From NCBI RefSeq assembly GCF_020405225.1, contig NZ_CP084472.1:3348001-3412000 (forward strand): a stretch of 64,000 nt of DNA. Reading direction: 5' to 3'. Below, piece after piece: positions 25,864 to 25,879 of this stretch (positions are counted from its first letter, which is position 1; every line of letters starts with the position of its first letter). The notes beneath the pieces are model-generated. The model was not told the DNA's origin. It saw only the letters and a program-made list of their open reading frames with translations, and did not search any database. Source of the DNA: Natrinema sp. DC36 (GTDB lineage Archaea > Halobacteriota > Halobacteria > Halobacteriales > Natrialbaceae). Both the position numbers and the translations under genes were made by a program.

Positions 25864-25879
25864 TTTAGGCCAACCTAAA
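25864..25879 (-). promoter_or_regulatory. Iron-box palindrome (DtxR/Idr-type operator)
   Basis: TTTAGGCCAACCTAAA on the plus strand, i.e. TTTAGGTTGGCCTAAA on the minus strand, identical to both boxes in front of the siderophore operon at 62.2 kb. An AT-rich TATA-like stretch (TACTTATTATG, minus strand) lies just upstream, so the box overlaps the expected start of transcription toward the DUF7552-like gene. Confidence 0.75.

Follow-up and report, generated by a model that had tools for sequence, protein, structure and literature searches.

An iron box, TTTAGGTTGGCCTAAA, lies in front of two overlapping genes of the DUF7552, DUF7551 and DUF7260 families in the 64,000-nucleotide stretch of Natrinema DNA that was analysed as a whole (the window). 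The box is probably an operator of the haloarchaeal iron regulon, with the two proteins acting as cytosolic partners of ferri-siderophore uptake, a reading based on box conservation, operon context and conserved cysteines. The position of the box before the operon, reported in an earlier note on this DNA, is confirmed, and the note's interpretation, in which the proteins are made during iron starvation and may take part in siderophore handling or iron sparing, is supported at the sequence level. The features are:

25864..25879, minus strand: iron box TTTAGGTTGGCCTAAA, predicted proximal operator of the DUF7552 operon (exact match, and conservation before orthologues)
25882..25889, minus strand: TATA-like element CTTATTAT (sequence, and upstream regions of relatives)
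25739..25743, minus strand: Shine-Dalgarno-like GGAGG before the ATG at 25733 (sequence)
24804..25733, minus strand: 309-aa protein with DUF7552 (PF24422) and DUF7551 (PF24420) (Pfam, alignment counts, dN/dS)
23998..24807, minus strand: 269-aa helical protein, DUF7260 (PF23921) (Pfam, predicted model, dN/dS)
62152..62167, plus strand: distal identical box of the siderophore operon (exact match)
62188..62203, plus strand: proximal identical box of the siderophore operon (exact match)
62275..63648, plus strand: class-III aminotransferase, first gene of the siderophore operon (Pfam)

The box had been described as identical to both boxes of the siderophore operon, and the matches at 62152 and 62188 are indeed exact; with up to 3 mismatches allowed, these three sites are the only ones in the window, compared to 0.03 expected by chance from shuffled sequence. 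It had also been called a 16-bp palindrome, which is true of its 6-bp arms (TTTAGG and CCTAAA) but not of its 4-bp spacer, since the central TTGG is not self-complementary. The two siderophore-operon boxes are 36 bp apart, the spacing of most tandem pairs before orthologues, and the aminotransferase that they precede is followed by a PLP decarboxylase, whose start still falls in the window, and then by two IucA/IucC synthetases and a Lys/Orn monooxygenase (Pfam). Across the genome, the TTAGG...CCTAA operator occurs far above chance. In particular, the pattern at up to 2 mismatches is found at 19 places versus 3 for the reversed pattern, and exact TTTAGG-N4-CCTAAA at 16 sites versus 1 for the reversed control; across 292 genomes of the class, there are 2444 such sites versus 32 in the control.

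The same operator precedes siderophore genes elsewhere in this genome. For example, two ORFs for siderophore-binding proteins in L024 (Peripla_BP_2) have boxes 3 and 7 bp in front of them, while L020 holds several binding proteins (Peripla_BP_2 in 3/3 scanned), an FAD protein and a DtxR-family regulator amid further boxes. Further, in L021 the distance from box to ORF is 5 bp for a solute-binding protein from a different family (SBP_bac_8) and 14 bp for a protein of the reversibly-glycosylated-polypeptide family. Three of the 19 places (L022, L023 and L025) have no obvious iron gene adjoining, and the ORF filter gave no convincing start at six more, of which L020 holds five and L024 one. The genome contains 13 Fe_dep_repress matches, 7 of them over the cut-off, including two that are so only with their neighbours in frame. 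As a separate observation, L021 (C1:2624000-2643900) carries a row of boxes at 6855, 8058, 9259, 14639 and 17292, whose box-led genes encode an LPG-synthase-like membrane protein, the reversibly-glycosylated-polypeptide protein, the solute-binding protein, a family-2 glycosyltransferase and a gluconate-2-dehydrogenase subunit 3; perhaps this is an iron-controlled surface-sugar cluster.

At the DUF7552 operon, the box lies on the core promoter, as in a FerR/DtxR-type regulon, and orthologues share this layout. In particular, the motif [CT]TTAT occupies the TATA-like position before the box in 14/14 loci from Natrinema and close relatives (L117-L130). The box was earlier said to overlap the expected transcription start; the predicted start lies about 26 bp downstream of CTTATTAT, and since the box stands between this element (25882-25889) and that start, it would not strictly overlap the start but end at or just before it. 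The first gene is predicted to begin with the ATG at 25733, after GGAGG, so that ~125 bases of leader would stay untranslated. An upstream start at the GTG of 25841, which would lengthen the N-terminus, was rejected, as the open frame of the close relative G071 continues only 11 codons beyond the 309 and the ATG at 25733 has GGAGG in front of it. Several divergent genera have the proximal box directly against the ATG, which fits leaderless genes. In relatives with a box pair, the TATA-like element stands between the distal and proximal boxes, and tandem boxes around a TATA element offer a simple picture of archaeal iron repression; the window retains the proximal box alone, as do G071 (L028), G078 (L029, L117) and G073 (L033).

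Relatives of the DUF7552-DUF7551 protein occur in 81 of 125 genomes of the same family (E 1e-10), with no match at this threshold in the same-genus genome G053. A box with at least 10 of 12 arm bases lies within 400 bp upstream in 55 of 70 family orthologue loci, and 15 have no direct box; the 70 are L027-L096, including this genome, with L097-L108 left out as the same genomes with longer flanks, and with L096 lacking the N-terminal part. Conservation before DUF7552 orthologues, proposed earlier as a check, was also assessed in named genomes. Among the best 80 of 157 relatives' loci, 46 have a box with at least 11 of 12 arm bases within 450 bp upstream, 24 lie inside a siderophore-uptake operon with a box at its head and 10 have neither, though the 80 are not independent, because several come from closely related organisms (14 from Natrinema or its near kin). 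Box pairs 30-38 bp apart precede 24 of the 80. In contrast, first-order Markov shuffles of the same upstream regions (50 rounds) gave a mean of 0.04 and a maximum of 1 per 80. An operon was classified as box-led when a box lay within 6.5 kb, co-directional genes for binding protein, flavoprotein, FecCD, ATPase or HEAT protein covered more than half of the gap, and no listed gene was opposed.

The ten loci with neither arrangement are L135, L153, L163, L164, L166, L171, L173, L180, L191 and L195; in L166, L173, L191 and L195, no box was found upstream within the stretch of sequence examined. In L163 and L164, a box lies 2.8 kb upstream of the DUF7552 gene and 5 bp before a co-directional DUF5059/copper-binding gene. 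Genes of this plastocyanin-type family stand directly upstream of DUF7552-DUF7260 at L163:6230-8704, L164:5447-7921 and L081:2350-4827, and their product is a candidate for a further iron-uptake protein. Single-domain DUF7552 genes, which lack DUF7551, were read by eye in 17 mapped loci, and all 17 have a box, either a short way upstream or heading the operon (the L096 box falls within the called start of a binding-protein ORF, and the L246 gene has an in-frame stop). Three further single-domain loci comprise L109 and L111, with a box, and L110, a broken same-genus DUF7552 gene that has an in-frame stop and no box. Separately, two divergent boxed DUF7552 genes (L114, L115) adjoin a DEAD-box helicase; a DUF7504/DUF7090 protein is encoded nearby in L115, and a DUF7090/DUF7504 gene also adjoins the box in L023 of this genome.

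The operon was first named after DUF7552 and DUF7260; both domains are present, but the first gene also holds DUF7551, which that name omitted (DUF7552 at residues 5-79 and DUF7551 at residues 122-306 by Pfam). The genes overlap as had been described, by 4 bp (GTGA), with the DUF7260 start on the stop of the first gene. Compared to five relatives, dN/dS is 0.26-0.32 for the 309-aa gene and 0.25-0.32 for the 269-aa gene, indicating purifying selection on both. Cys27, Cys126 and Cys167 of the first protein are present in all 66 aligned homologues and His127 in 65 of them; in an earlier alignment of 34 sequences (A1), Cys27 is absent in L050. In DUF7260, Cys254 is conserved in 31/31 and Cys257 in 29/31 sequences, with exceptions at both in an earlier set (A2). 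Overall, cysteine makes up 1.9-2.0% of both families versus 0.87% of predicted ORFs longer than 150 aa in the same loci, an approximately 2-fold difference. The three invariant cysteines of the first protein suggest metal or redox chemistry. The predicted models have mean pLDDT values of 86 for DUF7552-DUF7551 and 82 for DUF7260, which is helical. From the order of secondary structure, Cys126, His127, Glu158 and Cys167 would lie near the ends of the first three helices of DUF7551, on one side, making a metal site possible.

Fold searches gave weak matches for both proteins. Residues ~125-297 of DUF7551 are colinear with residues 1-184 of H-NOX (Z 5.2-6.1 over 142-158 residues, rmsd 4.5-5.4), a weak similarity that is below the tool's safe level and of a kind common by chance, and unrelated proteins rank as high or higher in the same search (best Z 6.8); Foldseek returned nothing for DUF7551 at E ≤ 0.001 (lowest E 0.016). 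In H-NOX proteins, the helix preceding the sheet contains a conserved haem histidine, the proximal one. When the position of this residue is judged via the weak structural alignment, it has no conserved counterpart in DUF7551: among the 66 sequences, histidine reaches at least 50% only in columns 12, 127 and 142, with no such column from 143 to the end. For V4R, hhalign gave a probability of 0.3% versus 23 of 30 V4R loci, and none of the 66 members has a V4R match. Neither family was adopted for DUF7551, as the structural alignment is weak and a V4R profile link is absent. The Pfam results of the 66 members contain no FhuF or SIP profile match at E ≤ 5, and no convincing sequence relative of solved structure was found (lowest E values 0.73 and, for a designed protein, 0.0084). 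For DUF7260, a known fold was rejected, its helical-bundle matches (Z ≤ 9.1) being too low to mean much for helical proteins; its weak matches to SMC and exonuclease proteins were discarded as probable products of coiled-coil structure.

The neighbours of orthologues point to siderophore uptake. Within 5 kb of the gene in 66 divergent loci (L131-L196), tblastn at 1e-6, with families named by Pfam on representatives, finds siderophore-binding proteins in 36, ABC ATPases in 24, flavoproteins (FAD) in 20, DUF7260 in 20, FecCD permeases in 12, DtxR in 11, HEAT proteins in 9 and Dps in 8, where the ATPase and flavoprotein queries may also pick up other members of these large families. Any of the binding protein, FAD protein, FecCD and ATPase is present in 43/66 loci, and none in 23/66. 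Of the two functions proposed earlier, siderophore handling gains from these uptake neighbours, but iron sparing is not favoured over uptake. Many other genera have this gene behind that of a siderophore-binding lipoprotein, often with the flavoprotein, in one box-led operon; in the genus studied here, it is mostly apart from the uptake operon, with its own box retained. Moreover, five of the 17 single-domain loci (L074, L113, L238, L239 and L240) have the order binding protein-DUF7552-FAD protein, and FecCD and the ATPase come next in four of them, in L240 after another box.

The neighbouring FAD protein has no CxxC motif in any of 27 cluster members, some of whose ORFs may be truncated calls; it is thus not a classical thioredoxin reductase and might be a ferric-siderophore reductase. 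A class-wide flavoprotein count, based on 7 candidates scored per genome, was set aside, because a strict cut of 1e-40 gave none in this genome despite its related FAD protein. A HEAT-repeat protein also recurs in or beside siderophore-uptake loci (L020:14939-15937 in this genome, L161, L165, L166, L168, L171, L174, L181 and L182).

Of 292 class genomes, 169 have DUF7551 (164 of these over the cut-off), which is spread over 48 of 77 genera, and 78 have IucA/IucC; 54 genomes have both, 115 DUF7551 alone, 24 IucA/IucC alone and 99 neither. The association is weak (54/169 with versus 24/123 without DUF7551; Fisher p 0.02, kinship ignored). As the DUF7551 gene often occurs without IucA/IucC, it is not bound to siderophore synthesis, which fits uptake, also of siderophores made by others. 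Genomes with DUF7551 (169) have a median of 10 boxes versus 4 in those without (123), kinship ignored, an excess that is partly circular because the gene's own boxes are counted. Haloferax volcanii has a DUF7552 match over the cut-off; the DUF7551 profile matches in both Haloferax volcanii and Caulobacter, with only one of the two over the cut-off. The neighbours of HVO_1464, tried as a lead to the Haloferax volcanii gene, include the unrelated menB, and this lead was dropped.

From these arrangements, we infer how the switch would work. With iron present, a metal-loaded DtxR-type repressor ('FerR') would sit between the TATA element and the start and block the polymerase; when iron is short, it would release the box, and both overlapping genes would be made along with the genes for siderophore synthesis and import. 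DUF7552-DUF7551 and DUF7260 would then act in the cytosol, after import of the ferri-siderophore, in a step that may consist of releasing, receiving or sensing iron via the conserved cysteines. We know of no settled route by which haloarchaea release iron from imported ferri-siderophores, and box conservation and operon context make these three nameless domain families concrete candidates for it. A more specific version is tentative, and more doubtful than not: the two proteins could be a previously undescribed cytosolic archaeal ferri-siderophore module, in which a protein bearing cysteines, and perhaps an H-NOX-like domain for ligand binding, accepts siderophore or iron from the importer and, together with the flavoprotein, hands on electrons or iron, replacing bacterial FhuF/SIP.

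Two other roles would leave the box as an iron operator. The proteins could form a regulatory circuit, either as an accessory sensor of iron or siderophore with the short DtxR-type regulator whose gene often lies just behind or as feedback on the repressor; the 11/66 divergent loci with a DtxR-family gene within 5 kb, several directly after DUF7260/DUF7552 on the same strand, are consistent with this, as are the invariant Cys126 and Cys167, the nearly invariant His127 and the weak alignment of DUF7551 with the sensor folds H-NOX and PoxR/MopR. However, that alignment (Z ~6) is not the top match, no DNA-binding domain recurs in the Pfam matches of the 66 members and DtxR is present in only 1 of 17 single-domain DUF7552 loci, making such a circuit unlikely. 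Iron sparing or iron-sulphur repair, in which the pair would shield or restore iron proteins under starvation and have only its switch in common with uptake, is quite improbable. A NifU-like iron-sulphur scaffold gene (22561-22968) and a DUF5783 gene (23006-23326), both on the minus strand, do lie downstream of DUF7260, as in 14 loci (L117-L130), NifU is also near the gene in L139, L144, L171 and L189, and Dps lies within 5 kb in 8/66 divergent loci; yet the gap between DUF7260 and DUF5783 is ~0.6-0.8 kb in the window and relatives, with no box between, and the 43/66 loci with uptake genes make these the commoner neighbours.

There is very little chance that the box serves a decayed gene on the opposite strand and stands before the DUF7552 operon by accident. 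Being nearly symmetric, the box could act both ways, and apparent gene remnants lie on the plus strand at ~26000-26700, but the decayed stretch finds similar DNA mainly in L101 and weakly in L099, whereas the box and TATA element (25864-25901) align repeatedly in a comparison with 26 loci of relatives, some genomes being represented twice, and form the most-aligned stretch together with a region near the PHP gene. Moreover, the TATA-like element points to the minus-strand operon, and orthologues from many other genera also have the box in front of them. The earlier note had named absence of the box before orthologues, with service to the decayed gene, as grounds for abandoning its proposal; the box is kept and the decayed gene is not conserved. 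The remnants themselves, between the operon and the PHP-domain gene, show only a weak DUF7555 match (E 0.056).

The known iron switch thus extends to a widespread module of uncharacterised proteins, which most likely act in the cytosol once the ferri-siderophore has been imported. The regulon itself is already known, and the module's link to it may be new, or unnamed in published gene lists; the names DUF7551, DUF7552 and DUF7260 were not found in the literature searched, where earlier papers could use locus names. The predicted DtxR-family FerR regulon of haloarchaea is that of Leyn and Rodionov (2015), as cited in PMC11349517, where every Haloferax fhu operon is said to have a predicted 'ferR' signal in front of it. 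The same paper reports that, under iron starvation, FhuD proteins go up and IucC of the siderophore operon falls 10.4-fold; the protein levels of box genes thus need not all increase. The FerR iron signal of the Haloferax uptake operons and the present box precede the same kinds of gene and may be one motif.

The FhuF/SIP ferric-siderophore reductases share with DUF7552-DUF7551 and DUF7260 the proposed place of action, in the cytosol after import, but gave no Pfam match among the 66 members. Of the H-NOX/V4R-like folds, H-NOX aligns colinearly but weakly with DUF7551, which has no conserved haem histidine, and V4R has no profile link to it. The DtxR/IdeR iron boxes of Actinobacteria have a 19-bp consensus with TTAGG and CCTAA half-sites, a promoter position and siderophore targets. 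The haloarchaeal box shares the TTAGG half-sites, the promoter position and the siderophore targets; unlike the actinobacterial boxes, it has the form TTTAGG-N4-CCTAAA and often occurs as two boxes ~36 bp apart around an archaeal TATA-like element.
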